Source of the DNA: Actinopolymorpha cephalotaxi
GTDB taxonomy: Bacteria; Actinomycetota; Actinomycetes; Propionibacteriales; Actinopolymorphaceae
Assembly (NCBI RefSeq): GCF_013408535.1
Contig: NZ_JACBZA010000001.1
Span: 2,812,850 to 2,876,849, forward strand
Length of the DNA stretch: 64,000 nucleotides
Reading direction: 5' to 3'
The position numbers were made by a program, and so were the translations under genes. Shown one piece after another: positions 32,919 through 40,158 of the stretch (position 1 is the first letter of the stretch; each line of letters begins with the position of its first letter). Below the pieces are notes generated by a model that saw nothing but the letters and a program-made list of their open reading frames with translations, searched no databases and was not told the origin of the DNA.

Positions 32919-33899
32919 TCAGACCTTCGCCACCGGCGCCGGCGGCCACTCCTCCGACAGCCCGAGGTCGACGACGCTCTCCAGTCCCTCGGGCCGCTCA
33001 CGGATGCGACGGTCCGAGGTGAGGAACCACGACTCCACGTGGTCGTCGAGCAACCCGCTGACCGCGGGCAGGTACGCCGTGAACATCGGGAACTCGCCGA
33101 GATCCAGGTCGTGCAGCGACCGGACCTCCGGCGCATCCCCGAGCACGAGGCGCCCGGTCGCGCGCGGCGCCACCGCGACGTAGGCGTCGCCGGTGAAGTA
33201 GATCGTGGACCGCATCAGCATGCCGCGGAACGACGCGTAGGCGACCGCCGCCGCCCGCAGCGGAAGCGGCCCGAACGACGGCCGGTCGATCTCCGCCCGG
33301 GCGGCGAGCAGCCCGTCGCTGTCGTACTGCGCGGCGACCCTGCGGTCGGTGACGTCGAAGCTCAGCGGCGCCCGGTGCTTGGGCATGCCCCAGATGCCCT
33401 TGCCGCCCTTGACCGAGATCTCGGTCGACACCGGCAGGTCGAGGAGGTAGAGCCCGGTGCCGAACCTCCCGCGCAGCAGACCGGGCAGCAGCCGCGGCGC
33501 CGGGCGGACGCCGTGCGTGCACATGATGCCGATGGAGTACTCGATGTAGCGTCCGATGTCGGTGTGCTGGTAGCTGAGGACCGTGACGAGGAGCACGCCG
33601 CGGCCGTTGGCCAGCCGCAACGGGTGCAGCTCGTCCCCGGGCAGTTTCGCCGCCGCGGCGTCGCCGTCGATGCTGAACGCCGCCATCATGGCCGGGGTGC
33701 CCCGGGAGTCGACCGGCATCACGAACGGCACGCCGTCCACGAGTGCGTGCCGACCGGCCTCGCGCCGCTGGCGGCGCGGCACGGGTGAGGGCGCGAGCCG
33801 GAACGCCAGGCCGGCGGCGCGAAGCAACGAGCCGTTGACAGTACCGAGTGCGTTGCCGAGTACGTTGCCGAGCACGCGACCGTTCGCAGAACCGTTCAT
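32919..33899 (-). CDS. Acetoacetate-decarboxylase-family protein
   Basis: 326 residues. The central region VSTEISVKGGKGIWGMPKHR matches the acetoacetate decarboxylase fold, where the lysine of the (W/Y/F)G.PK motif forms a Schiff base with a beta-keto acid. The protein is longer than the classical enzyme by about 80 residues. Its ATG overlaps the upstream hydrolase stop by 4 bases. It is the last of four coupled genes. Whether it decarboxylates or merely binds a keto compound is unknown. Confidence 0.8.
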   Translation of the reverse strand: MNGSANGRVLGNVLGNALGTVNGSLLRAAGLAFRLAPSPVPRRQRREAGRHALVDGVPFVMPVDSRGTPAMMAAFSIDGDAAAAKLPGDELHPLRLANGRGVLLVTVLSYQHTDIGRYIEYSIGIMCTHGVRPAPRLLPGLLRGRFGTGLYLLDLPVSTEISVKGGKGIWGMPKHRAPLSFDVTDRRVAAQYDSDGLLAARAEIDRPSFGPLPLRAAAVAYASFRGMLMRSTIYFTGDAYVAVAPRATGRLVLGDAPEVRSLHDLDLGEFPMFTAYLPAVSGLLDDHVESWFLTSDRRIRERPEGLESVVDLGLSEEWPPAPVAKV

Positions 33900-34960
33900 C
33901 GGGCCAGCTCCTCGAGGATGAGTGGGTAGGTGTCCCGGGCCGCGTTCTGACCGATGAACACGTCCAGGTGCCCGTAGCCGGGCAGGAGGTGCAGGGCATC
34001 CCTGCCGGGACGGTGCCCGGCGAAGAAGTCGAAGGAGCGTTGCTGGCTCGCGGGCAGGAAGCAGCGGTTGTCCTCCCCCGCGACGAACACGAAGCGCGCC
34101 TCCGTCCTGGGTGCCCCGGCCACGTACGACGCCGGAAGGCCGGGCAGGTTTCGCACCGGCACGAGGTGGCCGGCGTTCACCGATCGGCGCATCTGGGCGA
34201 AGAAGGTGAGCGGCACGTCGCCGAACTCCCCGCGGATCCACTGGTGAGTCGTCTCGTCGAGGTTCCGGTGCGACCACAGCGCGGGAAAGCCCGCCCCGTA
34301 CACGAAGGACACCATCCGGCAGACCGTGTTGCGGCACTCCCGGTGGGTGGCGCGTACGAGATCACGCATCAGGTGGGCGAACAGGCCGACGGGCCGGTCA
34401 CCCCAGGCCGGCGACACGTGGCTCACGAACCGGGACACGACCGGCGCCACGAACCCGATCTTGAAGCGGGACCAGTCCGGGATCACCGGGTGCAGCGACA
34501 CCGCGTTGGAGACGATCGTGTCGACCTCGGGCACCAGACCGGACACCGCCGAGATCGTGAACGACGTCGAGCCCTGGCAGTGGACGACGGCCTTCATCCG
34601 GTCCCGCCCGGTGAGCCGGCACACCTCCCGTACCGCGGCCGGATGGTCGTAGGCGGCGGCGTCGTCCAGCGTCCAGGACAGCGGGGGAAGGTCGATGGAC
34701 GCGCGCCAGTTGAGCAGCCACACGTCCCAGCCCGCGGCCAGGAGCGCGTCGACGAAGGTGTGTTCCAGCGGTGGGCGGAAGAGCTCCGCGCGCACTCCCG
34801 AGCCGTGCACGACGAGTACGGGCCCGCGCCGTGCGGTGCGCCCCGTACCCTCCGAATTCTCCACGTGCACGAGGGTCAGCGGCACGCCGTCCAGCGCCCG
34901 GAACGGGTGGATGGTGGTGTGGTGGCGCGCGGCGGCATCCGTCGCCGCGGTGACCGTCAT
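33896..34960 (-). CDS. Alpha/beta hydrolase, PhaC/lipase-like
   Basis: 354 residues. GPVLVVHGSGVRAELF gives the oxyanion region. The nucleophile position reads VVHCQGSTSFTI: where PhaC synthases have GxCxG, here Cys is followed by QGS, so Cys or Ser may serve. A late GYGHLDVFIG supplies the His. WDVWLLNWRASIDLPP is typical of PhaC-like and cholesterol-oxidase-associated hydrolases. It is coupled by ATGA overlaps on both sides. Confidence 0.82.
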   Translation of the reverse strand: MTVTAATDAAARHHTTIHPFRALDGVPLTLVHVENSEGTGRTARRGPVLVVHGSGVRAELFRPPLEHTFVDALLAAGWDVWLLNWRASIDLPPLSWTLDDAAAYDHPAAVREVCRLTGRDRMKAVVHCQGSTSFTISAVSGLVPEVDTIVSNAVSLHPVIPDWSRFKIGFVAPVVSRFVSHVSPAWGDRPVGLFAHLMRDLVRATHRECRNTVCRMVSFVYGAGFPALWSHRNLDETTHQWIRGEFGDVPLTFFAQMRRSVNAGHLVPVRNLPGLPASYVAGAPRTEARFVFVAGEDNRCFLPASQQRSFDFFAGHRPGRDALHLLPGYGHLDVFIGQNAARDTYPLILEELAR

Positions 34961-36759
34961 CGAGGTTCCTTCCGGGGAGCCTGCCCGGGAGCACACCGGG
35001 GGCCACTCCGGGGAACGCGGAACGGCGGCTCGGCGAGCCTGGGGACGGGCGGCTCGCCGGCGGGCGCGATCCAGGCCGCGTTCGGCTCGGCGTCGGGGGT
35101 CGCCCTCCACGTCCGGCAGACCGTGTCGACGACCACCGGATGAACGGTGAGCGAGCCGTCGCGGCCGATGTACATGCGCAGGAAGCCCTTGTGGTCCTCG
35201 ATGCCCCGCCCGGAGAAGATCCAGCCACGGACGACGGGCAGGTCCCGGTAGGCGAACAGCCAGCCGGCGAACAGTTCGACGCCGGCGATCCCGGCCACCA
35301 CCACGGCCGCGGCGAAGGCGGCCACCGCCGCGACCAGCCCCGGCACCCCTGCGGGCAACGGGACCGCCGCGAGCCCGGCGAGTACGACGAGGGCGAGGAC
35401 GACCTCGGCCGCGACGAGCGTCGCCGGCGCTCGGGCGAGGACCGGGCGCCGCCTGCGTACCAGGGCGAACGCCACGTCGACCACCACCGCGGCCGCGACG
35501 ACGAGCCCGATCCGCAGGCCGAGACCGAGCACGTCGCCGACGTCGCCGGTACGCAAAGCCGCCACCGGTGGCCGTCGCGTCGTCAGGGCCAGGGCGGCGA
35601 CGAGCAGCACCAGCAGCCCACCCTGCAGGAGGGTCGCGAGCCCGGCCAGGCCGCTGTTGCGCCACGGGATGCCCCACACCTGCCGGCCGAGGCGGCGCGA
35701 GGTCTGCTGGTCCGGGTACGCCGAGTCCGCCAGGTCCACGGTCAGCGGCTCGGACTTCTCCCGCGCTCTGGACCGCACCGGCGGAACCTCCAGCGACGCG
35801 GGCATCGCGTGGGTCGCCGACAGGTAGGCGCCACCCAGCCCGCACGTCACCATCTGCCGCGACCCGTCCCGCTCGGCGTACCGCACGTAGTGGTGGCTGT
35901 CGCCCGACACCCACAGCCGCACCTGCGCACCCGAGTCCTCGAGCAGCCGGCGCTGCAGGTAGTCGAGGGTGCCGAACGCGTCCGGGTCGGTGGCGGTGTC
36001 CACCCAGCTCGGCTTGCCGGTGGCCACGATGACGCCGTCGCCTGGCCGCAGCCGCGGCCGGACCTGTTCGGCGAAGAACCGCAACTGTGGCTCGTCCACG
36101 TACCCCTCGAGCTGGATGTCGACGCCCACCAGCCACCACCGCCGCGGCAGCCGGACGGCGAAGTACGAACGGGGCTGGCCGGTCTGCCAGCCGCCGATCG
36201 CCCGGCCCTGGCAGAACACCCGCAGGAACGAGGTCAGCCCGTCGTACCAGTCGTGGTTGCCGGGCAGGGCGAGCAGCATCGATGAGTCCTCACCCGGGCC
36301 GGCCGGCTCGGGCAGCGCCGCGCGGTAGCGGCCCTTCGTACGGTCCTCGTACTCGCGGGTGGACGCCGTCGGGTACACCTCGTCGCCGCCCATCAGCAGG
36401 AGCGCGGAACGCGGCAGCGTCAACCTGCCGTTGCCGCTGCCGCTGCCGTTGCCGTTCCGGTGGGCGGGTGCGACCTCGAGCTTGTCGTGGGCGAGCAGCC
36501 AGGCGATCGTGTACGTCGCGTCGAAGCCGTCGCCGAGGTCGGCGACGAAGTCCAGCCACAGCTCGTCAGCCTCGGGTTGACAGGTCAGCAACGGCTGGTC
36601 GAAGGTGCCCTGCAACTCGCGCTTGTCGGCGTACGCACCGAACATCTCCGAGATCACCAGCTTGGTCGCGGTGTGCCGCAACTGTCCCGGCGACAGCCAC
36701 CGCACCGGTTGTCTCCTGGCGAACCCGAGCGCGGACTCGGTGAGGTCGCCCGGCCTCAT
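34957..36759 (-). CDS. Membrane-bound metallophosphoesterase
   Basis: 600 residues. The first two thirds are a calcineurin-like phosphoesterase: DLGDGFDAT, MGGDEVYPTAS, LPGNHDWYDGL and VSGDSHHYVRY give the metal ligands. From about residue 375 four or five membrane helices follow (one is LAGLATLLQGGLLVLLVAAL), then a soluble tail of about 100 residues. The catalytic domain therefore precedes the membrane part and probably sits in the cytoplasm. A Gly/Asn/Ser-rich linker lies near residue 103. Target unknown. The ATG overlaps the GMC gene's stop (ATGA). Confidence 0.83.
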   Translation of the reverse strand: MRPGDLTESALGFARRQPVRWLSPGQLRHTATKLVISEMFGAYADKRELQGTFDQPLLTCQPEADELWLDFVADLGDGFDATYTIAWLLAHDKLEVAPAHRNGNGSGSGNGRLTLPRSALLLMGGDEVYPTASTREYEDRTKGRYRAALPEPAGPGEDSSMLLALPGNHDWYDGLTSFLRVFCQGRAIGGWQTGQPRSYFAVRLPRRWWLVGVDIQLEGYVDEPQLRFFAEQVRPRLRPGDGVIVATGKPSWVDTATDPDAFGTLDYLQRRLLEDSGAQVRLWVSGDSHHYVRYAERDGSRQMVTCGLGGAYLSATHAMPASLEVPPVRSRAREKSEPLTVDLADSAYPDQQTSRRLGRQVWGIPWRNSGLAGLATLLQGGLLVLLVAALALTTRRPPVAALRTGDVGDVLGLGLRIGLVVAAAVVVDVAFALVRRRRPVLARAPATLVAAEVVLALVVLAGLAAVPLPAGVPGLVAAVAAFAAAVVVAGIAGVELFAGWLFAYRDLPVVRGWIFSGRGIEDHKGFLRMYIGRDGSLTVHPVVVDTVCRTWRATPDAEPNAAWIAPAGEPPVPRLAEPPFRVPRSGPRCAPGQAPRKEPR

Positions 36760-39194
36760 CGGCGCTCCTCCGACCCTTCCCGCACAGCGTTCTCCCGCAG
36801 AGCACCTTCGTGCACAGCGCCTTCCGGCTCGGCGGCCTGCGTCCTCGACCCGTACACCGACCACAGCTCGCCGAGGAACAACCGGCCGAACGCCGCCAGC
36901 GCCGTCGGCCCGTCCGGCCCGCGGGTGCGGAACGTCGTCAACTGGTGCAGGAAGTCCAGCGGCGCGATGGTGATGACCGCGGCGCCGAGCACGTCGGCAC
37001 GGTCGTCCGCCGCCGGATCGACGTGGCCGCCGAGCAGCCGGACGTACAACGTCGTCGTGTCCGGCCACAGGTCGGCGCCGGCATCGTCGTGCACGTCCTT
37101 CCGCCCGACGAGGGTCACCGGGTTGCCGCCGCCGTCGGTGAACCACAGCCGGTAGCGCATCGCCCGGCGGGTGTGGTCGCCGTCGGTGGTGAACAGGTTG
37201 AACACTCCCCGGCTCACCGGACGCCTCCCGCCGAGCAGGTCGCACTCGATCCAGCCCTCCGCCCGGCCCTCGTGGGCGGGGTCGGCGACGAACCGTTGTA
37301 CGTCGTCCGCGGTGATGGTGAGGCGGAACGCCAGCCGGTCGCCGCGGGCGCGGCCCAGTCGTGCGCCCTGCTCCGGATCGGTCACGCCGAGCGCGGCGAA
37401 CCCCTTCATCTCCTCGGTGAACGACAGCGACGTGACGTCCGCGGTGGTACGTCGTTGCGCGGGCACCCGCGGCGCCGGGCCGGGTGCGCTGACGCCACGC
37501 GAAACCCGCCCGGACAGCAGCCGGTCACAGGCACGGTCGGCGAGGGCGGCGATCGTGAAGGAGGGGTTGGGCCCGACCGGACCGGGCATCAGCGAGCCGT
37601 CCGCGACCGCCATCCCCGGATAGCCGAACACCTGCCCGGTCGCGTCGCACACCCCAGCGCCCGGGTGGTCCGCCATCGGCGCCCCTCCGACCGGATGCAC
37701 GGTGATGACGCGCTTGCCCCACCACAGCGGGTTGTCCGCGAAGCCTCCGCCCGCGGCGTCGGCGATGGCGCGCATGGTGTCCCGCATGCGGGTGAAGTAC
37801 TCCTCGGACGTGGCGAGCGTCCACGTCGACTCCAGGTAGCCGCGGTCCAGGAACAGTTTCCCGTCGGGCACGTCCCGTCCCATGCCGATCAGCGGCAGGG
37901 TCGCCGCGGAGGTGTCACCGGCCCCGAGCAGTGCGGCGACCTCGGCGCTGATCCCGGTCTTCGGCGAGTGCTCCAGCCGCGCCCGCAGCCGCTGGAGCCC
38001 GAACCGGATCGTCCGTCCCAGCGAACGATCCGCCCGGGTGGTCTCGACCAGCCAGTCGGCGAAGCCCGGATAGCCGGCGTCCTCCACGTAGTAGCCGCGG
38101 CCACCGCCGCCGTCCACGGCGTCCGGCACCCGGATGGCGCTGGTGATGACCGGGCCACGACTGCCTTCCAGGCGCTCCGGACGCCCGCCCTCGCGCGCGT
38201 GCTTCACGAACGTGAGCAGGTCGCCGTTGCCCGAGAACCGGGTGCCGAGCGCGCCGCTCAGCCCGGGGAACGCCGCGCGGTTGCGCAGCAGCAGGTAGGT
38301 GGTCCCGAACGTCCCGGCGGCGAGTACGAGCTTGTCGCAGGTGAGGGTGTGCAGCGGCAGCCTGCTGGTGCGGGTGCGCCGCCCCTCCCGATCCGGCTCG
38401 TGTACGACGTACCGGACCTCGTACCCTCCCTCCGCACGCGGGGACAGGGTGCGTACCTCGCACCGGGTGCGCAGGTCGGCGCCGTGATGCTGCGCGGCGG
38501 ACAGGAAGGTGTGGTCGAGAGTGTTCTTCGCGCCGTCGTTGCAGCCGATGTCGCACTCCCCGCACAGCCGGCAGGTACGCCGTGGCAGACCGTGCAGGTT
38601 GCCGTACTCCGGAGTGGGAATGGGCGCGCCCACCACAGGTGCCTGGCCTGGAACGGGTGCGAAGGACACCGCCAGGGGCGGCAACTGCCAGTCGAGATCG
38701 AGGCGTTTCGCGGCACGGCGCATGGCGATCGTCTTGCCTGTCCCGTCGTAGCCCTGGGCGTCGAGCGGGAAGCGCTGCGGCGCGAGCATCCGCTCCACGC
38801 TGTCGTAGTGGGGGTCGAGCTCGGTGCGGGTGACCGGCCACGACTCGTAGCCGCCGCCGGGGATCGGGGACTCGTGCACGAACCAGCGCTCGTCCTTGCG
38901 GAGCAGCACGTTCGCGTAGATGAGCGAACCGCCGCCGAGGCCCGCGGACACCACCGCCTCGATCCCCCGGAACGTCCACACGTCGAACAGCCCCTGCAGT
39001 CCCTCGCTGGGATCCCAGAAGGCGCGGGAGAAGTCGGCCGGCGAGCGTGGGAACGAGCCGGGCGGATACGCCTTGCCGCGTTCGAGTACGATGACCCGCA
39101 GTCCCGCCTCGGCAAGCCTGAAAGCAGAAACCGACCCGCCGAATCCGGAACCGACCACCACCGCGTCGACGTGCTCGGACCTGGCCCTGGCCAT
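36756..39194 (-). CDS. GMC-family FAD oxidoreductase, cholesterol-oxidase-like, with extra C-terminal domain
   Basis: 812 residues from the ATG at 39194, preceded by GGGGGTGA. The FAD site is VVVGSGFGGSVSAFRLAEAG. Cys-rich RRTCRLCGECDIGCNDGAKN and the C-terminal HPVGGAPMADHPGAG and VGPNPSFTIAALADR are diagnostic of GMC oxidases related to cholesterol oxidase. After about residue 580 a further domain of about 220 residues (FTEEMKGFAALG onwards) has no catalytic signature I know. It should oxidise a sterol or other alcohol to a ketone with O2 or another acceptor. No export signal. It is the first of four ATGA-linked genes. Confidence 0.88.
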   Translation of the reverse strand: MARARSEHVDAVVVGSGFGGSVSAFRLAEAGLRVIVLERGKAYPPGSFPRSPADFSRAFWDPSEGLQGLFDVWTFRGIEAVVSAGLGGGSLIYANVLLRKDERWFVHESPIPGGGYESWPVTRTELDPHYDSVERMLAPQRFPLDAQGYDGTGKTIAMRRAAKRLDLDWQLPPLAVSFAPVPGQAPVVGAPIPTPEYGNLHGLPRRTCRLCGECDIGCNDGAKNTLDHTFLSAAQHHGADLRTRCEVRTLSPRAEGGYEVRYVVHEPDREGRRTRTSRLPLHTLTCDKLVLAAGTFGTTYLLLRNRAAFPGLSGALGTRFSGNGDLLTFVKHAREGGRPERLEGSRGPVITSAIRVPDAVDGGGGRGYYVEDAGYPGFADWLVETTRADRSLGRTIRFGLQRLRARLEHSPKTGISAEVAALLGAGDTSAATLPLIGMGRDVPDGKLFLDRGYLESTWTLATSEEYFTRMRDTMRAIADAAGGGFADNPLWWGKRVITVHPVGGAPMADHPGAGVCDATGQVFGYPGMAVADGSLMPGPVGPNPSFTIAALADRACDRLLSGRVSRGVSAPGPAPRVPAQRRTTADVTSLSFTEEMKGFAALGVTDPEQGARLGRARGDRLAFRLTITADDVQRFVADPAHEGRAEGWIECDLLGGRRPVSRGVFNLFTTDGDHTRRAMRYRLWFTDGGGNPVTLVGRKDVHDDAGADLWPDTTTLYVRLLGGHVDPAADDRADVLGAAVITIAPLDFLHQLTTFRTRGPDGPTALAAFGRLFLGELWSVYGSRTQAAEPEGAVHEGALRENAVREGSEERR

Positions 39195-39519: not shown

Positions 39520-40158
39520 CTAGGGCCAGCCTCGTTCCCTGATCGGCGCCACGACGGCTTCGGTCACGACGAGGTGGTCGGGAGCGGTCACCAGCCACGC
39601 GATGTAGTCCGCGACCTCACGTGCGGGCAGCGACTCCTCGGCCGGTCTCGGCTCGCGCCGCATACGGTCCGACGGCTCGAACGAGCCCCAGTGCGTGGCC
39701 ATCGAACCGGGATACATGGACATGACCCGGATGCCGTGCGGCGCACCTTCGGCGGCCAGCGCCTGGGTGAGGCCGGTCAACCCGAACTTCGTTGCGCAGT
39801 AGGCGGTCGCGTTCGGCCATCCACGTCGCCCGGCGACCGAGGCCACGTTGACGATCGTGCCGCCACCGGCCTGTCGCATGTACGGGAAGGCGAGCTTGGC
39901 CAGCAGGAACGGTGCGGTCAGGTTGACGCGGACGACCCGCTCCCAGTCCTCGACGGCAAGGTCCTCAGCCGGTCCGGGGGCGTCGGTGGCCGCGGCGTTC
40001 ACCAGAACGCGTGGGGCTCCGATCTCCGACGACACCCGCTCCACAGCGGCCGTCGTGGAGGCGAGGTCGGACAGGTCGGCCGGTATTGCCGTGGCGGTCC
40101 CGCCGGACTCGGCGACGGCAGCAACACCTCCTGGACGGGTCGTTCGCGAGGTCAGTAG
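39520..40158 (-). pseudogene. 5'-truncated SDR oxidoreductase
   Basis: The open frame covers SDR homology from the second strand (LLTSRTTRPGG) to the end. It includes VLVNAAATDAPGP, the catalytic Ser region IVNVASVAG and the YxxxK motif AYCATKFGLTG. The first about 35 residues with the TGxxxGIG cofactor loop are missing, and the homology begins exactly where the preceding epimerase ends (overlap 40152-40158). The first in-frame start is a GTG at 40044 without a ribosome site, well inside the fold. The simplest reading is a deletion that removed the 5' end. Confidence 0.7.

Follow-up and report, generated by a model that had tools for sequence, protein, structure and literature searches.

A stretch of 64,000 nucleotides from Actinopolymorpha cephalotaxi (positions 2,812,850 to 2,876,849 of contig NZ_JACBZA010000001.1, NCBI RefSeq assembly GCF_013408535.1), referred to here as the window, was taken from a genome of 6.86 Mb in one contig. 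On its minus strand the window carries a cassette of four adjoining genes. These encode a GMC-family FAD oxidoreductase with a C-terminal barrel domain (812 residues; 39194–36756), a membrane metallophosphoesterase (MPE) of the purple-acid-phosphatase fold (600 residues; 36759–34957), an acid-lipase-like α/β hydrolase (ABH) with a cysteine nucleophile (354 residues; 34960–33896) and an acetoacetate-decarboxylase-family (ADC-like) protein (326 residues; 33899–32919). An earlier annotation made from the letters of the DNA (the sequence-only reading) had described four ATGA-coupled genes of these families, and all of this was confirmed from the open reading frames, supplemented by Pfam matches for GMC, ABH and ADC and by the predicted fold for MPE. 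The gene set, gene order, fusions, co-occurrence, presence or absence as a unit, key residues and predicted folds presented here were all obtained by computation.

In the order GMC–MPE–ABH–ADC, all three gene junctions are ATGA, and thus 4-base overlaps. When the other genes of the window were called with a codon-usage script, 4 of 37 further same-strand neighbour pairs overlapped likewise, so that the overlaps by themselves are weak evidence. Three in a row are unusual, yet ordinary for an operon, and the strong evidence for the cassette is its conservation in relatives rather than the ATGA overlaps. The fixed ratio of the four proteins that the sequence-only reading derived from the overlaps is conjectural.

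The GMC protein exceeds the Pfam cut-offs for GMC_oxred_C (53 bits; cut-off 24.6) and GMC_oxred_N (23.9 bits; cut-off 23) and contains the GxGxxG FAD motif. Its catalytic pair, His500 in HPxGG and Asn543 in NPS, is conserved and aligns with that of the cholesterol oxidase structure 1coy. Alignment and residue spacing furthermore predict an Fe-S cluster site, Cys208-(Cys211)-Cys214-Cys218, encoded at 38541–38573 on the minus strand. Cys208, Cys214 and Cys218 (Cys-x5-Cys-x3-Cys) occur in all relatives aligned over the site; position 211 is variable, being Cys in some relatives and Ile, Val, Gly, Thr, Ser, Leu or Phe in others. In the alpha subunit of Burkholderia cepacia FAD-dependent glucose dehydrogenase (FAD-GDH), also a GMC enzyme, residues Cys212, Cys218 and Cys222 ligate a 3Fe-4S cluster through which electrons pass from FAD to a second protein (PMC6719666). 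The +6 and +4 spacing of the three cassette cysteines is identical to this, whereas 1coy has no cysteine at the aligned positions. The conserved cysteines, spaced as in FAD-GDH and absent from 1coy, suggest that the GMC protein is probably an Fe-S dehydrogenase rather than an O2 oxidase, and we infer that the site is loaded with a cluster. The cassette differs from the B. cepacia system in having no adjoining gamma subunit or multihaem cytochrome, in the optional nature of the fourth cysteine and in the weak overall similarity of the two enzymes.

Among solved structures, the class I cholesterol oxidases (1coy and 4u2l) are the best match to the GMC protein and share its FAD-binding GMC fold and His/Asn pair. 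Unlike cholesterol oxidase, the cassette enzyme has the Cys-x5-Cys-x3-Cys motif, an added barrel and a diverged substrate domain, and its hydropathy profile lacks a hydrophobic signal stretch. It scores 196.6 bits with the NCBIfam cholesterol oxidase model CholsOxChoxAB, far below the cut-off of 850. The description 'cholesterol-oxidase-like' given in the sequence-only reading fits the closest solved relatives and the catalytic pair, but it is misleading on mechanism because the protein bears the predicted iron–sulfur site. Stand-alone GMC genes at loci L171–L173, from the same order as the window, encode a diverged barrel and three of the four cysteines, and no MPE, ABH or ADC gene was seen alongside them.

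Residues 588–782 of the GMC protein (approximately 195 residues; 36849–37433, minus strand) form a mobile β-barrel domain, here termed CTD, that was examined with a sequence profile and an AlphaFold2 (AF2) model. The domain has no Pfam match. Its model (pLDDT 88; pTM 0.84) is an antiparallel barrel of eight long strands with C-terminal helices, so that the structure prediction proposed for this region earlier yielded a confident result. The extra domain, previously noted as 220 unexplained residues, is thus real, but 'unexplained' no longer describes it: according to its profile, the CTD is C-terminal in GMC proteins and in patatins, N-terminal in hydrolases and central in the fusions, and it also occurs as a stand-alone protein and behind acyl carrier protein (ACP)-thioester reductases. 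Foldseek returned no match below 1e-3, and the sequence profile none in the PDB. VIA Z-scores of 8–9 to avidins and designed barrels are near background, and the likeness to these proteins and to retinol-binding protein is one of general architecture only. From the company that the domain keeps and from its shape, the CTD may hold a hydrophobic substrate between partner enzymes. A divergent ADC-like domain was considered and rejected; the top Foldseek rows were MppR, an ADC-superfamily enzyme, but the TM-scores were 0.17 and the comparison with the ADC profile gave a probability of 0.2. The CTD also occurs behind an ACP-thioester reductase, followed by the same cysteine hydrolase, on Rhodococcus pyridinivorans plasmids (L194:4214–8948 and L193:5677–9041) and at L263:4853–8481. 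In the R. pyridinivorans clusters, the domain lies within a polyketide cluster that also encodes a crotonyl-CoA carboxylase/reductase and glycosyltransferases.

The MPE scores 12.9 bits with Pfam Metallophos, below the cut-off of 21.5. Its assignment is nevertheless supported by the AF2 model (pLDDT 85), which matches purple acid phosphatase 5uq6 with a VIA Z-score of 23.5 over 263 residues. Hydropathy and the AF2 helices place a four-helix transmembrane bundle at residues 369–503 (35251–35655, minus strand; helices 369–394, 407–434, 439–465 and 474–503), after which strands 524–582 return to the phosphoesterase domain. This bundle, inserted in the domain, together with the fold, bears out the earlier proposal of a membrane-anchored phosphoesterase. 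Purple acid phosphatases are characterised by five motifs: DxG, GDxxY, GNH, VxxH and GHxH. In MPE, residues Asp74, Asp126, Tyr129, Asn168, His169 and His289 are invariant, and the DxG, GDxxY and GNHD motifs are kept, as in the purple acid phosphatase/PhoD/GpdQ superfamily at large. MPE departs from that superfamily in the lack of VxxH, in GDxHH replacing GHxH and in the inserted bundle. Phosphoesterase activity is plausible.

The ABH matches Pfam Abhydrolase_1 with 28.3 bits (cut-off 25.8). Its predicted catalytic residues are Cys128, Asn298 and His331; the HC.G motif, Asn298 and the YGH.D motif are invariant in 19 homologues, and 29 of the 30 members of the family have Cys as the nucleophile, the remaining one not being caught by the pattern. 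The best match of the family profile is gastric lipase (1hlg; 3.4e-17), followed by lysosomal acid lipase (6v7n; 3.1e-13) and polyhydroxyalkanoate (PHA) synthase (1.7e-6). ABH aligns with the acid lipases at the lipase box and in the YxHLD region, with the nucleophilic Ser of the lipases opposite Cys128; ABH differs from these lipases in the substitution of Cys for Ser and in the conserved Asn298 of its putative acid region. With the PHA synthase PhaC (9knj and 6k3c), ABH shares a Cys nucleophile, the α/β hydrolase fold and a weak profile match, but it falls far below the NCBIfam PhaC cut-off (18.9 versus 365.3 bits). The earlier designation 'PhaC-like hydrolase' hence holds for the nucleophile and fails for the nearest relatives, which are acid lipases.

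The ADC-like protein belongs to the acetoacetate decarboxylase family by its score with Pfam ADC (PF06314; 57.1 bits, cut-off 29.8) and by a conserved Lys in a PK motif. This residue, Lys174 of GIWGMPK, is invariant in 12 homologues and, judged by the motif, is taken to be equivalent to the Schiff-base Lys of classical acetoacetate decarboxylase; the second Lys of the classical enzyme (KK) is replaced by His. Alignment against the PDB returned no match to a solved structure. As the ADC superfamily also includes aldolases and dehydratases, decarboxylation is just one option for this protein.

Conservation of the cassette was observed from the genus to the phylum level. The cassette is present in two of five same-genus genomes, with GMC approximately 91% identical and the flanks the same. 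A further congener, G297, has these flanking genes separated by 1.2 kb that contain no cassette DNA, whereas 7.4 kb separate them in the window, which indicates that the block is gained or lost as one unit. Streptomyces fragilis, S. torulosus, Cellulomonas and an Arthrobacter megaplasmid share the order GMC–MPE–ABH–ADC, as do loci L165 and L175 elsewhere in the phylum; at L166, MPE has shifted to the front. Across the loci, the four proteins diverge in step, their pairwise distances correlating with r of 0.78–0.94. Among 395 other Actinomycetota genomes, a close ADC was found in six, a close ABH in seven and both in five (p 1.6e-9), and ABH occurred only in genomes with the barrel domain (9/9; p 4e-14), p values that ignore the kinship of the genomes. 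The four genes almost certainly form one functional module, as the sequence-only reading had proposed: the order is conserved in several classes of Actinomycetota, so that the lack of synteny named there as a refutation was looked for and did not apply, and the fusions described below, co-presence and gain or loss as a unit all support the proposal.

A single protein of 1120–1169 residues combines GMC, CTD and ABH in Azospirillum oryzae, Rhizobium leguminosarum, Leptospira borgpetersenii, Bernardetia and Persicobacter, and the same fusion occurs in Variovorax. These proteins span Pseudomonadota, Spirochaetota and Bacteroidota, a breadth that is a lower bound, since phyla beyond Actinomycetota were sampled via named plasmid records only. 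In Azospirillum, the gene directly upstream of the fusion encodes an MPE homologue (32% identity; approximately 600 residues), and in Cupriavidus MPE adjoins GMC. A plasmid of Ensifer sp. PDNC004 (L192:9812–15538) encodes a 1908-residue protein, annotated only as an alpha/beta fold hydrolase, in which GMC and ABH are fused to a PhoD phosphatase. PhoD also replaces MPE at L168 and L259, and at L254, L255, L256, L260, L261 and L191 the GMC-barrel genes are accompanied by further calcineurin-type phosphoesterases. Altogether, a phosphoesterase of one of several families lies within approximately 3 kb in 15 of the 26 barrel loci that were not picked via a phosphoesterase query. The exchange of one phosphoesterase family for another speaks for phosphoester cleavage as a required step. 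On plasmid lbp2 of L. borgpetersenii (L196:5504–20685), the fusion and a second GMC gene lie near genes of the sphingomyelin phosphodiesterase and zinc-dependent phospholipase C families. Four of the actinomycetotal loci (L254, L255, L260 and L261) represent another recurring cluster, composed of GMC, a stand-alone barrel, a flavoprotein resembling a fused response regulator and thioredoxin reductase, and a calcineurin-type phosphoesterase; some of these loci also have an SRPBCC-like gene close by.

Many homologous loci have three more genes after ADC, first two for membrane proteins of 155 residues (Anthrone_oxy/DUF1772-like) and 130 residues (DUF4345-like) and then one for a patatin-like lipase. 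None of the three lies beside the cassette in the window genome, and a genome-wide search there for the cassette-type patatin, with a positive control in G341, found none. The conserved trio follows ADC at L055:9381–11694, L079:13880–16124 and L165:5662–8454, and its patatin often has a diverged barrel at the C-terminus. A role in anti-phage defence was rejected, as neither the patatin nor any of the four cassette proteins had a PADLOC match.

It is proposed, with about an even chance of being correct, that the cassette encodes a membrane-associated route that processes a hydrophobic alcohol or its ester. In such a route, the membrane-anchored phosphoesterase would release a hydroxyl from a lipid phosphate, and the GMC flavoprotein would turn a hydroxyl into a carbonyl and donate the electrons, via the iron–sulfur site, to an acceptor that is not O2. 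The barrel would keep the greasy intermediate beside the partner enzymes while the lipase-like hydrolase, with its Cys nucleophile, removes an acyl group or transfers it, and the ADC-family protein would work on the resulting β-keto compound via a Schiff base at Lys174. That the substrate is a hydrophobic alcohol, ester or phosphate is fairly likely, and the lipid-like theme of the sequence-only reading is supported. The order that it had suggested (dephosphorylate, oxidise, cleave, decarboxylate) is unlikely as worded there.

Several observations weigh against the proposed route. With VxxH lost and GHxH changed, MPE lacks two of the canonical metal-binding histidines of purple acid phosphatases, and it could therefore be another kind of phosphoesterase or an anchor devoid of catalytic activity. 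No hitchhiker subunit or cytochrome of the FAD-GDH type was recognised among the GMC neighbours, and the likeness of the CTD to lipid-binding folds is weak, with no ligand shown. In the regions fetched around the fusions of Rhizobium, Leptospira, Bernardetia and Persicobacter, the phosphoesterase queries found no homologue. ADC occurs in only some of the Actinomycetota clusters and in none of the fusions, which places decarboxylation outside the core of the cassette. Furthermore, every substrate in the route is inferred.

The same genes might instead form a biosynthetic tailoring module, in which a lipid aldehyde or ketone made by the oxidoreductase is presented by the barrel to the Cys hydrolase, acting as an acyltransferase or condensing enzyme, to build a specialised lipid rather than break one down. 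The thioester-reductase loci of R. pyridinivorans and of L263, the latter from the class of the window, show that two different carbonyl-forming oxidoreductases pair with the barrel and hydrolase, and in Rhodococcus the barrel-reductase gene closes a polyketide synthase region. The patchy spread of the cassette, with clean presence or absence within a genus, is typical of specialised metabolism, and the Asn in the putative acid region of the hydrolase suits acyl transfer. However, the window cassette neither contains nor is fused to a synthase, a regulator or an exporter, and a patatin and an acid-lipase-like fold point to ester breakdown; the tailoring module is somewhat doubtful. An ordinary operon for lipid or sterol catabolism is quite unlikely. 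Here the hydrolase (elsewhere also the patatin) would free an alcohol from an ester for oxidation by a conventional, O2-dependent GMC of the cholesterol oxidase type, and the phosphoesterase would serve as an anchor or regulator only. The closest solved GMC relatives and the closest hydrolases (gastric and lysosomal acid lipases) would suit such an operon, as would the altered metal ligands of MPE and the presence of Plasmodium GAP50, titled as an anchor, in the VIA list at a Z-score of 22.6. The low score with the NCBIfam cholesterol oxidase model, the conserved cysteines that cholesterol oxidase lacks and the recurrence of phosphoesterases of several families beside GMC all speak against it.

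It is highly improbable that the four genes have unrelated functions and are adjacent only through the dense operons of such genomes. Four-base overlaps are common in the window, and the MPE family stands alone in many Micromonosporaceae. Even so, the fusions, which cross phyla, and the synteny, with gene order kept across classes, contradict unrelated functions, and the co-occurrence statistics and correlated divergence also stand against them.

Taken beyond the window, the proposed lipid route may tentatively be extended to an undescribed pathway in at least four bacterial phyla, in which the mobile barrel would carry a greasy substrate between interchangeable catalysts. The oxidoreductase among them would be either a GMC dehydrogenase with an Fe-S site or a polyketide thioester reductase; the others would be an acid-lipase homologue with a Cys nucleophile, a patatin, a membrane phosphoesterase of the purple-acid-phosphatase fold and a Schiff-base decarboxylase. 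Known enzyme superfamilies are joined in a recurrent, partly fused module that has no name in public family libraries, and the element that unites it is a domain for which Pfam has no model. The literature searched contained no described pathway or gene set with such a combination, in agreement with the sequence-only reading, although absence of description is not proof; a suberin proteome paper names an ADC and patatins, in unrelated organisms (PMC5158114). If correct, the pathway would add a bacterial route to oxidise and trim lipid alcohols, and would explain many genes annotated merely as 'GMC oxidoreductase', 'alpha/beta hydrolase' or 'metallophosphoesterase'. The presence of iron in a cholesterol-oxidase-like flavoprotein would directly test whether the enzyme feeds electron transport or makes peroxide.

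The genes around the cassette, named by eye from their sequences, appear unrelated to it. One flank carries a ROK-like regulator and sugar isomerase/dehydrogenase-like genes, and the other carries aldo-keto reductases and epimerase-like genes. In two congeners, a cysteinyl-tRNA-synthetase/MshC-like gene adjoins the cassette (L180:11773–13128 and L181:5552–6904); at the corresponding place, the window has a short SDR-like open reading frame with no clear start at 39520–40152.

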